The notes below the pieces were generated by a model, which was given only the letters and a program-made list of their open reading frames with translations, ran no database searches and was not told the origin of the DNA. The position numbers were made by a program, and so were the translations under genes. A stretch of 64,000 nucleotides of DNA from NCBI RefSeq assembly GCF_003207825.1, contig NZ_NKTY01000002.1, positions 124,001 through 188,000 on the forward strand, written 5' to 3'. Each line of letters opens with the position of its first letter. Position 1 is the first letter of the stretch. This document shows positions 22,922 to 40,584 of the stretch, in pieces. The DNA comes from Komagataeibacter saccharivorans (GTDB lineage: Bacteria > Pseudomonadota > Alphaproteobacteria > Acetobacterales > Acetobacteraceae).

Positions 22922-23655
22922 GCCGCATCCGGGCGGAAGGCACCGGGGGGAATGCGACCGGGGGTTACATAGGCATATTCCAGCTCATCCAGCATCGACC
23001 ACAGCACGGCGCATTTGAATTTGAGCGCGTCCAGCACCGCCTTCTGCTGCTCCGGCGTGCGGGCATGTTCCTTCACATAGGCCAGCGCGAAATCGGAATC
23101 GCGCGGGGCCTGTGTCAGGCGCGGATGGAAATAGGCCAGCGTTTCGGAGTTCACAAAATCATAATGCTGCAACATCCCCGCGACCCGCTCACTGATAATG
23201 GTGGGCGAGAACAGTTCGGTCAGGGAGGAGGCAATCGCTTCCAGAATGGAGCGGTCACGCACGAATGCAACATAGGCATCCACCGCAAAGCGCGTGGCGG
23301 GCAGCAGCCCCTCCAGCGACTCGACATAGCCGCGGTCAAGGCCCAGCCCGTCCGTCAGCTTCAGCCAGCGCGCCACGCCTCCGGTGCCCGGTGCGTCGCC
23401 ATCATGGTCAACAAGCCTGCGCCGCCATTCGCGCCGCAGTTCCGCCGTGGGCAGGCGCGCAAGCAGCGTCGCATCCTTGGCGGGGATGCTGGCCTGATAA
23501 TAATAGCGGTTCAGTGCCCATGCCTGCACCTGCGCACGCGTCAGCCTGCCGTCATGCAGCGCCCGGTGGAAGGGGTGCAGGTTATGGTAGCGTTCCGCCC
23601 CAATGGCCCGCAGGGCCGCCTCAAGTTCATCGGGGGAAAGCAGGTGTCCGCTCAT
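22918..23655 (-). CDS. pqqC: Pyrroloquinoline-quinone synthase PqqC
   Basis: PqqC is the cofactor-free oxidase that performs the last ring-closing, eight-electron oxidation to PQQ. The 245-residue protein contains YHNLHPFHRALHDGRLTRAQVQAWALNRYYYQ, SIPAKDATLLAR, and LTELFSPTIISERVAGMLQHY, all hallmark segments with active-site His, Arg and Tyr residues. It overlaps pqqB and pqqD by four bases each. Confidence 0.96.
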   Translation of the reverse strand: MSGHLLSPDELEAALRAIGAERYHNLHPFHRALHDGRLTRAQVQAWALNRYYYQASIPAKDATLLARLPTAELRREWRRRLVDHDGDAPGTGGVARWLKLTDGLGLDRGYVESLEGLLPATRFAVDAYVAFVRDRSILEAIASSLTELFSPTIISERVAGMLQHYDFVNSETLAYFHPRLTQAPRDSDFALAYVKEHARTPEQQKAVLDALKFKCAVLWSMLDELEYAYVTPGRIPPGAFRPDAA

Positions 23656-24575
23656 GCTGTAATCCTCATCCCGTCATGGGAGACTTCCCACCCTGCGGCC
23701 TCGACCTGGGCGCGTTCAGGGGAATCCGCCAGAAGGACAGGGTTGGAGTTGTTGATGTGTATGAAAATCCTGCGTTTGATCCCGAGGTCACGCAGGGCGG
23801 CGATGGTGCCTTCCATCCCGTTGATGGACATGTGCCCCATGCGGCGGCCAGTCTTTTCACCCAGCCCCGCGCGGATCATCTCATCATCCACCCACAGCGT
23901 GCCGTCGAAGAATACCGCATCCGCCCCACGCAGGCGCACCCGCAGGTTATCGGTCATGCGCGCACAGCCGGGCACGAAACAGACGCGATGCGCGCCGTCC
24001 GATATTTCCAGGCCGATCGTTTCCCCATTTTCGCAGATGGCGGCGGGATCAGGCCCGGCCTCGGCATAAAGCGGCACCTTGCCCGGCACCACAAACGGCA
24101 CGATGGTCAGGCCCGCGGGCGACCCGTCACGCAGGCGCAGGGGCAGCGGCTGGTCAAGCGCCATGGTCTCGCGGGGGACGACCTCGCGGTTCAGGGCTTC
24201 AAATATGGGATTGGCATCCAGCATGGCCAGCACTTCGGTCGTGGCCAGCAGGGTAAAGGGCTCACGCTCACGCAGGGTCAGCAGGCCGGTAATGGTATCG
24301 ACCTCGCCCCCCGTCAGGATCACCCCGGCTATGGGGGTGGAGCGCAGGCCTTCGCGCGGATGTAGCGCGGGGGTCTGGTTTATCTGGGTTCGCAGGTCGG
24401 GGGAGGCATTGACCACGAACCAGTGCCTTCCATCCCCACTGATAGCGATGGAAGCCTGTGTGCGGGGCGGGGCTGCTGGATCGCCGGCCCTTGCCCGCCT
24501 GCAACCGGGAGCGTTTGAATTCCACTGCGGAAATCCACCGCCCGCCGCCGCGCCGAGAACGATAATGTCGATCAT
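23652..24575 (-). CDS. pqqB: PQQ biosynthesis protein PqqB
   Basis: PqqB is a metallo-beta-lactamase-fold protein thought to act as an oxygenase on the PqqA-derived tyrosine intermediate. The 307-residue product begins MIDIIVLGAAAGGGFPQWN, the family signature; it continues with GVILTGGEVDTITGLLTLRE (in place of the canonical metal-binding HxHxDH), FFDGTLWVDDEM, GHMSINGM and FIHINNSNPVL. The start is set by family alignment at ATG 24575, with only 55 bases and a stem-loop separating it from pqqA. Confidence 0.96.
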   Translation of the reverse strand: MIDIIVLGAAAGGGFPQWNSNAPGCRRARAGDPAAPPRTQASIAISGDGRHWFVVNASPDLRTQINQTPALHPREGLRSTPIAGVILTGGEVDTITGLLTLREREPFTLLATTEVLAMLDANPIFEALNREVVPRETMALDQPLPLRLRDGSPAGLTIVPFVVPGKVPLYAEAGPDPAAICENGETIGLEISDGAHRVCFVPGCARMTDNLRVRLRGADAVFFDGTLWVDDEMIRAGLGEKTGRRMGHMSINGMEGTIAALRDLGIKRRIFIHINNSNPVLLADSPERAQVEAAGWEVSHDGMRITA

Positions 24576-24597
24576 GGACGCAGAGTGTAAAAGAAAA

Positions 24598-24624
24598 TCG
24601 CCGCCTGTGCGAGACAGGCGGCGA
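24598..24624 (-). terminator. Hairpin between pqqA and pqqB (attenuator-like)
   Basis: A perfect 11-bp stem (24598-24608 with 24614-24624, loop GCGAG) lies between pqqA and pqqB. It has no T run, so read-through is likely. Such an element would stabilise a short, abundant pqqA message while reducing pqqBCDE, a pattern reported for other pqq operons. Confidence 0.6.
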
Positions 24625-24630
24625 CAATCC

Positions 24631-24711
24631 TTACTTCTTTTCGCCGCACACGTAGCTGTTGATTTCAGCGCCCAGCGGGACTTCAACGATCTTGGGGGTA
24701 TTCCAGGCCAT
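24631..24711 (-). CDS. pqqA: PQQ precursor peptide PqqA
   Basis: This 26-residue peptide is the ribosomal precursor of PQQ. The start MAWNTPKIVEVPLG and the core E-I-N-S-Y supply the conserved Glu and Tyr (spaced E-x3-Y) that PqqE cross-links; the peptide ends VCGEKK. GGAG lies seven bases before the ATG. It heads the pqqABCDE operon. PQQ is the cofactor of the membrane alcohol and glucose dehydrogenases that define acetic acid bacteria. Confidence 0.97.
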   Translation of the reverse strand: MAWNTPKIVEVPLGAEINSYVCGEKK

Positions 24712-24793: not shown

Positions 24794-24931
24794 CCCTTGT
24801 TTCCCGCCATATGCAGCCGGAAAATTCACGTTAGCGTGTACGCTGCGCGCGCCTGCAATCCCTGCGTAGCCGGAATGTGCCAAAAACCTTGGCCCCATCC
24901 CCCATATAGGCCCATAAAGGGACGGATTGCC

Positions 24932-24961
24932 GTACCTGCGTACCCACCGGTACGCAGGTAC
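24932..24961. repeat. Perfect GTAC-rich palindrome in the pqqA/AI-2E intergenic region
   Basis: The 308-base gap 24712-25019 holds the pqqA leader and this element. Arms of 13 bases (GTACCTGCGTACC at 24932-24944 and its exact complement at 24949-24961) flank a four-base centre. Four GTAC tetranucleotides fall in the arms, and a fifth is at 24970-24973 after ACATAT. It could be an operator for a dimeric regulator between divergent genes, or a hairpin in either transcript. No known consensus comes to mind. Confidence 0.7.
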
Positions 24962-25019
24962 CTACATATGTACTGCCCCCGCTGTCTGGGCCGCGCCAGC
25001 ACATGCCAGGACCCGATTG

Positions 25020-26300
25020 ATGCCGCCCGAGACACAACCGCCCCCCGAGCCCCCGCACCCGTCCTATGAGCAGATCCAGCAGCGCCGCGCCATCGAGGTC
25101 ATGCGCCACAGCCGGATCGACCTGCGCACGGCCTGCCTGCTGCTGCTCAGCGTGCTGGCGGTTTTCTACACGCTGTATTTCGCATCGGCCATTGTCCTGC
25201 CGATGATCCTGGCGCTGGTGGTCAACCTGCTGCTTTCGACGCCAATGCGTTTCCTGCACTCCCGGCTGCACCTGCCCAAGCCACTGGCGGCACTGTGCCT
25301 GATCCTGTGCGTGTTCGGCATTGTGGGCGCTGTGGGCACCGCCATTTCCGTGCCCGCCACCGGCTGGCTGGAACGCGCGCCCGAAGCGCTGAACACCCTG
25401 CGCGACCGTCTGGCCTTCCTGCGCGGTCCCTTCCAGTTACTGACCAGCGCTTCGGACCGCATCCGCAATTTCATGACGATCGCGGGCAGTCATCTCGACC
25501 ATGCCACGCCCGCCGATACGACGAACGAGCATGTCATTGTCGTGTCCACACCCGGCGGTGGCGGTCTGGACCGGTTCAGTTCGTCCATCCTGCTGGGCAC
25601 GCAGGCCTTCATGGGCCAGTTCTTCACCATGATCCTGATGCTGTTCTTCCTGCTTGCGCAGGGGGACAGCCTGCTCCGGCGGTTTGTGGAGATCATGCCC
25701 ACCTTCGCCGACAAGCGCCGGACCGTGCAGATCGCCTACCAGATCGAACGCAATGTTTCCCTGTATCTGGCCACCATCACCATCATCAACAGCCTGGTCG
25801 GGCTGGCGAACATGGCGCAGTGCTGGCTGCTGGGCATGCCCAATGCCCTGCTGTGGGGGGTGATGGCGTTCCTGCTGAACTACATTCCCATCATCGGCCC
25901 GATGATGGGCATCATCATCTATTTTCTGGTGGGCCTGTTTGTTTACCCGTCCGTGTGGCAGGCGCTTTTGCCGCCCGCCATCTATCTGTGCATTCACCTG
26001 ACGGAAGGCGAGACCATAACCCCCATGGTGCTGGCCCGCCGGTTTACCCTCAATCCGGTTCTGGTGATGGCGTCGCTCATGTTCTGGGACTGGCTATGGG
26101 GAATTTTCGGGGCGTTCCTGTCCGTGCCCCTGCTGGCGGTCTTCAAGATCATCTGCGACCATGTGGAGATCCTGACCCCGATCGGCCATATCGTGGGTGG
26201 CCCTGCGCATACGACGCCGCAGAAACCCCTCTTTTCCGATACGTCGCCCGCCCCTTCCGGCACCGATACGGCGGATAACCTGCCCGGACCGGAGGACTAA
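25020..26300 (+). CDS. AI-2E family transporter (PerM/YdiK type permease)
   Basis: A 426-residue inner-membrane protein of the AI-2E transporter superfamily. It has two N-terminal membrane segments (LRTACLLLLSVLAVFYTLYF, IVLPMILALVVNLLL), a soluble central stretch, and C-terminal helices with MAFLLNYIPIIGPMMGIIIYF and LNPVLVMASLMFWDWLWGIFGAFLSVPLLAVFKI, the family hallmark. Members have been linked to export of signals, ions or unknown solutes; the substrate here is unknown. ATG 25020 has AGGA about nine bases upstream. Its stop overlaps the convergent FNR-family gene by four bases. Confidence 0.85.
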   Translation: MPPETQPPPEPPHPSYEQIQQRRAIEVMRHSRIDLRTACLLLLSVLAVFYTLYFASAIVLPMILALVVNLLLSTPMRFLHSRLHLPKPLAALCLILCVFGIVGAVGTAISVPATGWLERAPEALNTLRDRLAFLRGPFQLLTSASDRIRNFMTIAGSHLDHATPADTTNEHVIVVSTPGGGGLDRFSSSILLGTQAFMGQFFTMILMLFFLLAQGDSLLRRFVEIMPTFADKRRTVQIAYQIERNVSLYLATITIINSLVGLANMAQCWLLGMPNALLWGVMAFLLNYIPIIGPMMGIIIYFLVGLFVYPSVWQALLPPAIYLCIHLTEGETITPMVLARRFTLNPVLVMASLMFWDWLWGIFGAFLSVPLLAVFKIICDHVEILTPIGHIVGGPAHTTPQKPLFSDTSPAPSGTDTADNLPGPED

Positions 26301-30891: not shown

Positions 30892-32532
30892 ATGAGCGAG
30901 ACTCCGCGCGAGACTATGGAATTCGATGTCGTCATCGTTGGCGGCGGCCCGTCGGGCCTGGCGGCGGCCATCCGGCTGCGCCAGCTTGCCCCCGACGCCA
31001 GCGTATGCCTGATTGAAAAAGGCAGCGAGATTGGCGCCCATATCCTGTCGGGTGCCGTAATCGAACCACGCGCGCTGGCAGAACTCCTGCCCCACTGGCG
31101 GGAAGAGGGCGCCCCGCTGAACACCCCCGTGACAGAGGAGCAGATGCTCTACCTGACACAGGACAACAGCCTTGAAGTCCCGTTCCTTGAACGCGTGATG
31201 CCGCACATGCGCAACCACGGCAATTTCATTGTAAGCCTTGGTGATTTCTGCCGCTGGCTTGCCGGCCGGGCGGAAGAGCTGGGGGTTGAAATCTATCCCG
31301 GCTTTGCCGGTGCCGAAGTGCTGATCGACGATGATGGCCGCGTCGCGGGCGTTGCCACGGGTGACATGGGCGTGGGTCGCGATGGCCAGCCGGGCGACAA
31401 CTATGCCCCCGGCATGGAACTGCGCGCGAAATACACCCTGTTCGCCGAAGGCTGCCGGGGATCGCTGACCAAGCAGGTCATGGCGATGTACAACCTGCGC
31501 AAGGGCGTGGATGACCAGACCTATGGGCTGGGCATCAAGGAACTGTGGGAAATCCCCAAGGAAATGCACCGCCCCGGCATGGTGCAGCACAGCTTCGGCT
31601 GGCCGCTGGATGACCGGACCTATGGCGGCGCGTGGATGTACCATTTTGGCGACAACCTCGTCTCCTACGGGTTCGTGGTCGGTCTGGACTACCCCAATAC
31701 ATGGCTGTCCCCGTTTGACGAGATGCAGCGCGTCAAGCTGCATCCGGCCTTCCGCCCGTATTTTGAAGGTGGCCGTCGCATCGCCTATGGCGCGCGCGCG
31801 CTGTCCGAAGGCGGCATCCAGTCCATTCCCCGCCTGACCTTCCCCGGCGGGGCGCTGATTGGCGATACGGCGGGCTTCCTGAACGTGCCCAAGATCAAAG
31901 GCACCCATACGGCCATGAAATCGGGCATGCTGGCGGCGGAAGCCGTGGCGGAAGCCCTGATCACCAGCCGCGTGGAGCCGGGTTCCTATACCCGCCGCAT
32001 CCGGGATTCGTGGCTGTGGACCGAACTGCGCGCGGTGCGCAACATCCGCCCCGCCTTCGCCAAATTCGGCATGAAGGGCGGCGCGCTGTATTCCGGTATC
32101 GACGCCATGCTGCTGCGCGGTCGCGCGCCGTGGACACTGCATACCCGCCATGGCGATAACGAGACCCTGGAACCGGCAGCCGTCTCCCCGCAGATCCAGT
32201 ATCCCAGGCCGGATGGCAAGATCACGTTCGACCGCCTGTCCTCGGTCTTCCTGTCCGCCACCAATCATGAGGAGGACCAGCCCGTCCACCTGAAGGTGCG
32301 CAACATGTCGCTGTGGAAAACGGTGAACTGGAACATCTTCCGCGCGCCGGAAAGCCGTTACTGCCCCGCGGGCGTGTACGAAGTGGCCGATGAGGATACG
32401 GACCCGCGCCTGCAGATCAACGCGCAGAACTGCGTGCACTGCAAGACCTGTGACATCAAGGACCCGGCCCAGAACATTGACTGGGCCACGCCGGAGGGCG
32501 CAGGCGGCCCCAACTATCCGGGCGGGATGTAA
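30892..32532 (+). CDS. Electron transfer flavoprotein-ubiquinone oxidoreductase
   Basis: ETF-QO passes electrons from reduced ETF to membrane ubiquinone. The 546-residue protein has the FAD motif [20 protein letters not shown], the ubiquinone-region block [21 protein letters not shown], and a C-terminal 4Fe-4S site ([12 protein letters not shown] plus an earlier Cys in YCPAGVYEV). I favour ATG 30892 (MSETPRETM), which has AAGAGGA about nine bases upstream, over ATG 30868. It heads an etf cluster, with etfB and etfA following, so beta-oxidation or amino-acid dehydrogenase electrons can enter the respiratory chain here. Confidence 0.93.
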
Positions 32533-38471: not shown

Positions 38472-39116
38472 TTATCGCATGATGATATTATCGGCCCTGA
38501 GCGCATCCAGCAGGGGCAGCAATGGCAGGCCGAGGATGGCGGCGTGATCGCCCTCGATACGGGAAAACAGGTGAATGCCCGGCCCTTCCAGCCGGTAACA
38601 GCCGACACAGGACAGAATCGCATCCCCTTCGATCGCCAGATAACGATCCAGAAAAGAATCGCTGAACGCGCGCATATGCAGCACGGGGCACGCGACATGG
38701 CGCCATGTTTCGCGGCCATCACGCATCATCACCACCGCCGTATGCAGCATATGGGCCTTTCCCCGTAGGGTGCGGAGGTGGCAGCGCGCGACCGAAAGGT
38801 TTTCGGGCTTGTCGAACCATTCCCCCGCGCAGGACAGCATCTGGTCCGCGCCGATCACAACCGCACCCGGATCAGCCCGTGTCGCCCGCGCCTTGGCGCG
38901 GGCGAGTTCGAGGGCGGTCTGGCTGGCATCCATTTCCTGTTCACGGCAATGCTGGCGTATGGCGTGTTCATCCACCTCCGCCGCGCGGCATGTCACCGAA
39001 AGGCCCGCCGATTCCAGCAGGGCGCGGCGGGCGGCTGAACGGCTGGCCAGTACTATCGGGGGCGACTCCGCCTGTAACGGATGCGTCTTTAGTACTAAAT
39101 TCGAGTCGCCCGGCAT
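38472..39116 (-). CDS. maf: Maf family nucleotide pyrophosphatase
   Basis: Maf proteins hydrolyse non-canonical or modified nucleoside triphosphates and are linked to septum control. The 214-residue protein has IVLASRSAARRALLESAGL (phosphate-binding), EVDEHAIR, ELARAKARATRADPGAVVIGADQML (general Asp) and YLAIEGDAILSCVGCYRLEGPGIHLF with HAAILGLPLLPLLDALR. ATG 39116 (MPGDSNLV) has GGAG six bases upstream; the frame remains open far upstream, but across the origin region without coding character. maf beside hemE and oriC is a recurring alphaproteobacterial arrangement. Confidence 0.88.
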   Translation of the reverse strand: MPGDSNLVLKTHPLQAESPPIVLASRSAARRALLESAGLSVTCRAAEVDEHAIRQHCREQEMDASQTALELARAKARATRADPGAVVIGADQMLSCAGEWFDKPENLSVARCHLRTLRGKAHMLHTAVVMMRDGRETWRHVACPVLHMRAFSDSFLDRYLAIEGDAILSCVGCYRLEGPGIHLFSRIEGDHAAILGLPLLPLLDALRADNIIMR

Positions 39117-39522
39117 CACCTTCTCCGTACTGATGAAATGAAACATGAAATTCGACGCGTTCGAGTACTGGGGTACATGGGGACAGTACTCCAAACAGTT
39201 CTGCGCCGTACCGAGTACCGTGGACAACGGGTACACCTGCGGACGCGGTGGGTTGTACACAGGCTTATGTCGGTACAATCTGGATAACTCTCCCGACCCA
39301 CGGGAATCCTTGGAGTCGGAAACTGTACACTCTGTGGGAAAAGTGGGGTACATTTTCGGAAGTGCGGGTACCCCGTCATCCACAGCACTTAAAGCACATC
39401 AAAAATTTTCTTTCTCTTTTCTTTTATTGTTTTGAAAGGAGCACGCGCATCGCGCCTGCCCGCTATCCGTCGGCGGGAAAGTACGAGATAGTCCGGCCAC
39501 AACGAAACAGAACGACGGATCG
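39117..39522. other. Putative chromosomal replication origin (oriC)
   Basis: This 406-base non-coding gap lies between divergent maf and hemE. DnaA-box-like sites (one mismatch from TTWTNCACA) are TTGTACACA 39253-39261, TCTGGATAA 39279-39287 (reverse), TGTGGGAAA 39333-39341 (reverse) and TCATCCACA 39376-39384; a weaker one is CGTGGACAA 39219-39227. An AT-rich tract (about 39388-39437) next to them could be the unwinding element. Two GANTC sites occur at 39304 and 39314. Twelve GTAC tetranucleotides fall in 39127-39371. Known context: in Caulobacter and Rickettsia oriC adjoins hemE. Genes to the right run almost uniformly rightward. Confidence 0.75.
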
Positions 39523-40584
39523 ATGACTGAAACACGCAAACCCCTGCTCGCTACCCTGTTGGGAGAGGCAACATGGCCGCCTCCGGTATGGCTGATGCGA
39601 CAGGCGGGCCGGTTCCTGCCGGAATTCCGGGCCCTGCGTGAAAAAGCGGACTTCCTGACACGCTGCATGACGCCGGACATGGCGGTAGACATCACGCTGC
39701 AGCCCATCCGCCGTTTTGGCATGGATGGCGCGATCCTGTTTTCGGATATCCTGATCCTGCCCTGGGCAATGGGTCAGTCGCTTGATTTCGTGCCCGGTAG
39801 GGGGCCTGTGCTGGGACCGGTGCGTTCACAGGCGGATCTGGAACGGCTTGATCCGGGCCGGGTCACAAAAGCGATCGAGCCGGTCATGGAAACCCTTCAG
39901 CGGCTGCGCAGGATCGTGGACGGGCCGGAAGCAATCGGTCCGGCCAGACCGGGACAGGTCACGCTGATCGGTTTCGCGGGCGCACCGTTCACCGTGGCGT
40001 GCTACATGGTCGAAGGCCATGGCTCGCGGGAGTTCGAGGAAACCCGCAGGCTTGCCTATACCGACCCGGCCTTCTTCGATCGGCTGATCGACCTGCTGAC
40101 CACCGCGACGGCTGACATGCTGTGCGCCCAGATCGAAGCGGGCGCGGAAGCGGTCATGCTGTTCGATAGCTGGTCCGGCCTGCTGCCACCGTCGCAGTTC
40201 CGCAGGCATGTCATCGAACCTGCGCGGCGGATTACCGAAATCATCAGGTCGCGCCATCCCGGCACGCCTGTTATCGGCTTCCCACGTCTTGGCGGGCTTA
40301 TGGCGATTGAATACGGGCATCAGACCGGCGTGAACGCCATGGCGCTCGATACCGGGGCCGATATGAAGGCCGTGGCCGCGCAGGTGCCTGATACGCTGGT
40401 GCTTCAGGGTAATCTCGACCCGATCCGCGTGCTGGCTGGCGGGGAAGGCATGCGCGCCGAAGCCCGCGCCATCCGTGATGCCATGAAGGGCCGGCCGCAT
40501 GTGTTCAACCTTGGCCATGGCGTCATTCCCGCCACCCCGCCCGAGCATGTCGGCGACCTGATCAAGACCATCCGGGATGTGTGA
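39523..40584 (+). CDS. hemE: Uroporphyrinogen decarboxylase
   Basis: HemE removes four carboxyl groups from uroporphyrinogen III to give coproporphyrinogen III in haem synthesis. The 353-residue protein has the signature PPVWLMRQAGRFLPEFRALREKADFL (substrate Arg residues), ILFSDILILPWAMG (catalytic Asp), GFAGAPFTVACYMVEGHGS and VFNLGHGVIPATPPEHV. It lies immediately right of the putative oriC and heads a rightward group with a HAD phosphatase gene and hemJ. Its product feeds HemN, encoded at 28.7 kb. Confidence 0.97.
   Translation: MTETRKPLLATLLGEATWPPPVWLMRQAGRFLPEFRALREKADFLTRCMTPDMAVDITLQPIRRFGMDGAILFSDILILPWAMGQSLDFVPGRGPVLGPVRSQADLERLDPGRVTKAIEPVMETLQRLRRIVDGPEAIGPARPGQVTLIGFAGAPFTVACYMVEGHGSREFEETRRLAYTDPAFFDRLIDLLTTATADMLCAQIEAGAEAVMLFDSWSGLLPPSQFRRHVIEPARRITEIIRSRHPGTPVIGFPRLGGLMAIEYGHQTGVNAMALDTGADMKAVAAQVPDTLVLQGNLDPIRVLAGGEGMRAEARAIRDAMKGRPHVFNLGHGVIPATPPEHVGDLIKTIRDV

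Follow-up and report, generated by a model that had tools for sequence, protein, structure and literature searches.

The 64-kb window analysed here, meaning the whole stretch of DNA examined (C44:124001-188000), belongs to a 3.35-Mb draft assembly of 107 contigs, and the nearest hemE relatives found are from Komagataeibacter, with 90-93% identity. In this window maf and hemE lie on opposite strands and are separated by an intergenic gap with a G+C content of 52%, as compared to 59-68% across the 2-kb bins of the window. An Rfam scan of 34-44 kb at gathering thresholds revealed nothing beyond two tRNAs. The genes and elements at this locus, in window coordinates and with the strand where one applies, are the following:

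38472-39101, minus strand: maf (PF02545), from Pfam
39050-39484: GTAC array of 15 sites, at 39050, 39092, 39127, 39165, 39173, 39186, 39208, 39215, 39231, 39255, 39273, 39325, 39348, 39368 and 39481, from motif count, conserved spacing and shuffles
39102-39522: proposed oriC, the maf-hemE intergenic gap, from sequence, Pfam neighbours and skew
39173-39371: conserved core of the array; seven of its GTACs (39173, 39208, 39215, 39255, 39325, 39348 and 39368) are retained in 20 or more of 25 genomes
39219-39227, minus strand: weak DnaA-like site TTGTCCACG, two mismatches from TTATCCACA, adjoining a GTAC
39253-39261, plus strand: DnaA-like site TTGTACACA, one mismatch from TTWTNCACA, with a GTAC inside
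39279-39287, minus strand: DnaA-like site TTATCCAGA, one mismatch from TTWTNCACA
39304-39317: two GANTC (CcrM-type) sites, at 39304 and 39313, from motif match
39333-39341, minus strand: DnaA-like site TTTCCCACA, one mismatch from TTWTNCACA
39376-39384, plus strand: DnaA-like site TCATCCACA, one mismatch from TTWTNCACA, beside the T-rich tract
39388-39437: T-rich tract, a probable unwinding element, visible in the sequence and with similar tracts in aligned relatives
39523-40584, plus strand: hemE (PF01208), from Pfam

A preliminary description of this DNA had proposed a chromosomal replication origin between maf and hemE on the basis of four DnaA-box-like sites, an adjacent AT-rich tract and a pair of GANTC sites. 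All four DnaA-like sites are found where it placed them and their number is above chance, as dinucleotide shuffles of the gap contain 0.63 on average and at most three (500 shuffles), and as only 0.35 of the 55 such sites in the window would be expected in the gap by length. The AT-rich tract is likewise visible and is T-rich, while of the GANTC pair the site at 39304 was correctly located and the second, given as 39314, begins at 39313; further GANTC sites lie to the left of this pair at 39010, 39064 and 39103. The 9-mer TTGTACACA is found in 24 of 25 array genomes (the window and 24 others). A scan of the gap with an IHF consensus gave no match within one mismatch, and GATC is missing from the list of 4-mers enriched there.

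Origin identity was further addressed using GC skew, parS sites and gene order. Over 228 kb of C44, skew is negative in all 20 of the 8-kb bins to the left of C44:160001 and positive in eight of the nine to the right. The cumulative minimum falls at window position 31218, just 22 counts under the value at 39300, and hence the turn forms a broad trough between 31 and 39 kb. The hand counts given in the preliminary description (45 C and 29 G on the left, 35 C and 44 G on the right) are exact and too small to carry weight, and the statement that genes from 39.5 to 57 kb are nearly all rightward is loosely right by eye, apart from leftward ORFs at about 41.8-43.3 kb, the longest-ORF tiling being too crude to decide it. 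In the congener G061, sampled as 20 stretches of 20 kb on a 3.0-Mb contig, all eight stretches between 0.68 and 1.82 Mb show negative skew and all six between 1.967 and 2.74 Mb show positive skew. In between, the value is near zero (+0.003) at 1.90 Mb and negative immediately to the left of the gap, while the four stretches that lie below 0.53 Mb are positive or about zero. The turn thus coincides with hemE of that genome at 1.9656-1.9667 Mb. The skew of Gluconacetobacter diazotrophicus is noisy, being negative in nine of ten stretches from 0.44 to 2.14 Mb and mixed in the other ten, six of which are positive. Two perfect parS sites, the only ones detected (C44:112084 and C44:114424), lie about 50 kb from the gap on the same contig, and dnaA sits on a contig other than C44.

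In four more distant family members, the gene located opposite hemE falls into a kinase/pyrophosphorylase (PF03618) sequence cluster, of which one member was Pfam-tested. We take the PF03618 gene to be COG1806/DUF299, and these members therefore exhibit the Caulobacter arrangement. The published Caulobacter origin (Cori) lies between hemE and COG1806, in agreement with the placement of oriC beside hemE given in the preliminary description, and the present gap resembles it in its position beside hemE, its DnaA boxes and its AT-rich region (PMC1914354). It differs from Cori in that maf replaces COG1806 opposite hemE, in its GTAC array and in the absence from the gap of the TTAA-N7-TTAA CtrA site, which is described for Caulobacter and Rickettsiales origins (PMC1914354) and which in our judgement need not be required of every alphaproteobacterial oriC. 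Taken together, the contig skew, the skew turn in the congener, the parS sites, the conserved DnaA-like sites with the T-rich tract and the position beside hemE make it very probable that the maf-hemE gap is the chromosomal oriC. This interpretation of the preliminary description is hence supported, although the GTAC array, which is the most unusual feature of the gap, had been overlooked in it.

The 406-bp gap contains 13 GTAC, as compared to 0.62 expected from the density in the window, and shuffles of the gap contain a mean of 1.98 and a maximum of seven (2000 shuffles). Among 80 hemE loci, the array recurs upstream of hemE in Komagataeibacter, Novacetimonas, Gluconacetobacter, Acetobacter, Ameyamaea and Gluconobacter. 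Part of the sites follow the spacing 8, 13, 22, 7, 40, 70, 23 and 20 in both Komagataeibacter and Acetobacter, and in Gluconobacter a spacing that agrees with it to within a base. Thinner arrays of 6-9 GTAC occur at L045, L052, L069 and L081, and the array is absent (0-3 GTAC) at ten of the 80 loci, which comprise Bombella/Parasaccharibacter records and L055. The G+C content of the upstream region ranges from 27 to 67% across genomes, and the array is retained even at 27% (G041, 11 GTAC). When the window was aligned with 24 array genomes having at least six GTAC in 400 bp, GTAC was, by a wide margin, the conserved 4-mer that recurred most often, with seven occurrences as compared to three for the next. 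Three further array genomes (G078, G018 and G034) were left out of this alignment and of the PF01555 and PF02086 surveys. At six of the ten array-less Bombella-type loci (L057, L058, L060, L062, L072 and L074) one TCATCCACA is located 316-342 bp upstream of hemE. Another arrangement is observed at L192 (G067, 2.0 Mb, without P0001), where 450 bp upstream of hemE contain 11 perfect TTATCCACA boxes and no GTAC, and the origin of this genome is built differently.

A candidate for the enzyme acting on these sites is P0001, a solitary methyltransferase (C82:66145-67029) with a TSPPY motif, which we take to place it in the beta class. Its two best matches among solved structures are cytosine-N4 enzymes and lower-ranked ones include adenine enzymes, so that m4C is a likely, not a certain, product. 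A close homologue is present in 56 of 120 family genomes (E 2e-98 or better, the next match being 6e-22), and among 385 class genomes four matches reached E 1e-50 or better, each of them labelled as its own or the same family. Genes of this type have housekeeping neighbours in the order Tim44-MltA-MTase-Smr, and by ORF clustering of 13 loci an MltA-type neighbour is found in ten, Tim44 in eight and Smr in seven. In G011, G068, G110 and G065 the P0001-type gene lies 5-8 kb from hemE. The matches in G057 and G026, two of the 24 strongest array genomes, have one in-frame stop, in neither case inside the PF01555 part.

Two other enzymes were considered and rejected as the GTAC methyltransferase. 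CcrM constitutes a separate family, and P0001 reaches 68.6 bits with its model, for which the cut-off is 830; the CcrM-type gene of the same genome, P0002, scores 622 bits and is likewise under this cut-off. A D12-class gene downstream of ccrM was dismissed, as PF02086 is found in just ten of 24 array genomes. Such a gene is seen at L088 (1-1149), where ccrM is directly followed by a second ORF that has a DPPY motif and is D12-like by eye, and in G061 and G074 a PF02086 match adjoins that of CcrM type. The methyltransferase survey covered the PF01555 and PF02086 families.

The relation between array and enzyme was examined in the 120 family genomes, among which hemE is found in 117 (no match in G032, G042 and G051) and 116 upstream stretches were obtained; 113 were usable, with the own genome excluded and with upstream DNA too short in G083, G081 and G106. 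An array of at least four GTAC within 400 bp is present in 27 of 53 MTase-positive and in none of 60 MTase-negative genomes, and thus occurs in this sample only where the methyltransferase is present (Fisher p ~1e-11 with kinship ignored; array and MTase are both clade-linked, so that the 2x2 test counts few independent events). Against a strict link weigh one GTAC that persists in an MTase-negative genome (G044) and the 26 of 53 MTase-positive genomes without an array, which include G119, G033 and G102, all three among the 15 of 116 genomes ranked highest for hemE similarity. In Bombella-type genomes the MTase is kept and the array is absent. All 24 of the strongest array genomes carry a CcrM-type gene (by score) and a P0001-type gene, and nine of these 24 (1.9-4.8 Mb) have no PF01555 match besides these two.

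The specificity of P0001 can be approached through its phage relatives. M.RsaI of Rhodobacter blasticus makes m4C at GTAC (PMC6256690). In the cyanophages Syn19 and ACG-2014j, relatives of P0001 each overlap a gene annotated by the depositor as R.RsaI endonuclease, the equivalent gene in Syn2 being labelled hypothetical, and this association emerged from the phage search after the array had already suggested GTAC. P0001 shares 42-44% identity along its length with the two R.RsaI-linked phage enzymes, M.RsaI itself lying outside this comparison. Slightly closer phage relatives (an unannotated uncultured phage and ACG-2014f) and two relatives on Paracoccus plasmids have no annotated R.RsaI neighbour. 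A connection of P0001 to RsaI restriction-modification (PMC6256690) would run through these relatives, whose neighbours in two cyanophage species carry the R.RsaI annotation; P0001 differs in that its context is housekeeping and that its own genome has no match to the phage R.RsaI-annotated endonuclease used as query. The same query gave five weak matches among the 120 family genomes, one of them in G042; no R.RsaI homologue was found on plasmids or in any of 385 class genomes, the latter search being uninformative. In G042 (L321, 384-2019) a P0001 homologue is followed by an ORF weakly like the phage endonuclease (E 9.6e-4 for one genome) and unmatched by a second phage endonuclease, and by sequence this pair may constitute a GTAC restriction-modification system within the family; an RsaI-like match in G034 is on another contig. 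With G042 as a possible exception, the methyltransferase is conserved in the family without a partner endonuclease.

These features can be combined in a model in which DnaA would bind the cluster of degenerate boxes and open the T-rich tract next to hemE, and P0001, encoded elsewhere in the genome, would methylate GTAC, probably as N4-methylcytosine. Passage of the fork would leave a dozen GTACs hemimethylated together, and hemimethylation could lower the binding of DnaA, a GTAC being located inside a conserved DnaA-like site, or could recruit a putative reader, such that re-initiation would be delayed until the GTACs are re-methylated. This reading as a whole, that is an oriC under GTAC methylation by the orphan P0001 which acts as an epigenetic clock, is considered fairly probable. 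With somewhat more reserve, we lean towards its general form, in which acetic acid bacteria would time replication by GTAC methylation, probably as N4-methylcytosine, through a solitary RsaI-type enzyme and a GTAC-rich oriC, with a putative reader of hemimethylated GTAC and a clock that evolved independently of Dam/SeqA and operates beside CcrM.

In E. coli oriC, GATC palindromes are interspersed among DnaA boxes and are used by the Dam/SeqA system. The present gap similarly has some twelve palindromes of methylation type interspersed with DnaA boxes, but the motif is GTAC instead of GATC and the enzyme is a beta-class SPPY protein, and by analogy the likeliest reading is that the proposed system works like Dam/GATC at oriC, with no assignment to the Dam or CcrM family. 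Four clusters of orphan-MTase motifs at origins were reported by Blow et al. 2016, namely of GATC, CTCGAG, TTAA and an m4C motif of haloarchaea, which is given as CATG in one place and as CTAG in another, and GTAC does not appear in the main text (PMC4752239). The GTAC array is like these clusters as described there in that a short palindrome is densely clustered in non-coding DNA at an origin and the cluster co-occurs with a conserved solitary MTase, and at the level of sequence it shares their enrichment, orthologous position, orphan MTase and co-occurrence; it is unlike them in its motif, in its MTase family and in its hemE-type alphaproteobacterial origin, which also has a CcrM-type enzyme (PMC4752239). 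The persistent orphan MTases HG10 and HG18 are reported for GTAC (m4C) and are comparable with P0001, for which GTAC is proposed, by description and not by sequence; they are archaeal, however, and in the portion of that source available it is CTAG (HG1), not GTAC, that is tied to an origin (PMC10609329).

In the 25-genome alignment, mean information is 1.41 bits for GTAC, 1.19 bits for the three bases adjoining it to either side and 0.73 bits elsewhere, and since the flanks stand above the rest, some GTACs may belong to longer protein sites. GTACs with conserved flanks are found at GGGGTACATGGGGA, TTGTACACAG and GGGTACCCC, which favours an alternative in which the gap is oriC, the GTACs are cores of longer sites for DnaA and another origin-binding protein, and the MTase co-occurs by shared ancestry. 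GGGTACCCC, which precedes the last DnaA-like site, occurs in several of the more distant members as well, and likewise in the MTase-negative G044, implying that this GTAC is older than, or independent of, a methylation role, and its persistence without the MTase fits this alternative, as does retention of the MTase without the array in Bombella-type genomes. However, no flanking base is common to all GTAC sites, the conserved ones being preceded by A, C, G or T and followed by A, C or T, and the connection between the MTase and RsaI emerged without use of the array; we regard such longer sites as an unlikely explanation, albeit one to be taken seriously. G044 was also considered as a natural case of MTase loss and set aside, as it resembles the more distant hemE-upstream type and provides no clean test.

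An ordinary oriC with inherited GTACs of no present function would accord with the general conservation of oriC sequences and with the Bombella-type genomes living without the array, but is improbable, as the array holds across genera in which other bases of the gap have diverged (0.73 as against 1.41 bits) and across upstream regions of 27-67% G+C. That the gap is a regulatory region and the origin lies near dnaA, where Ori-Finder put oriC of Acetobacter pasteurianus 386B (PMC3751514), is hardly credible despite the exact skew minimum of the contig being 8 kb to the left of the gap, given that skew turns at this gap in G061, that parS sites lie about 50 kb from it and that the position beside hemE is Cori-like (PMC1914354).

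No paper linking GTAC, a methyltransferase and Acetobacteraceae was found, and none was recognised as describing this array in literature searched mostly below full-text level, PMC3037559 included. If the gap is oriC as proposed, the origin of cellulose and vinegar producers is thereby located. If GTAC methylation does time replication from it, this would add one more independent system of origin methylation, one that operates in bacteria of industrial use and coexists with a CcrM-type enzyme, and a cytosine-methylation counterpart to Dam/SeqA, and the question of why unrelated lineages place methylation clocks on origins would become directly testable. Elsewhere in the window, a second GTAC cluster, whose five GTAC in 42 bp form a palindrome, is observed at 24932-24973, between a leftward ORF that is pqqB-like by eye (23652-24686) and a transporter-like ORF directed rightward (24927-26300).
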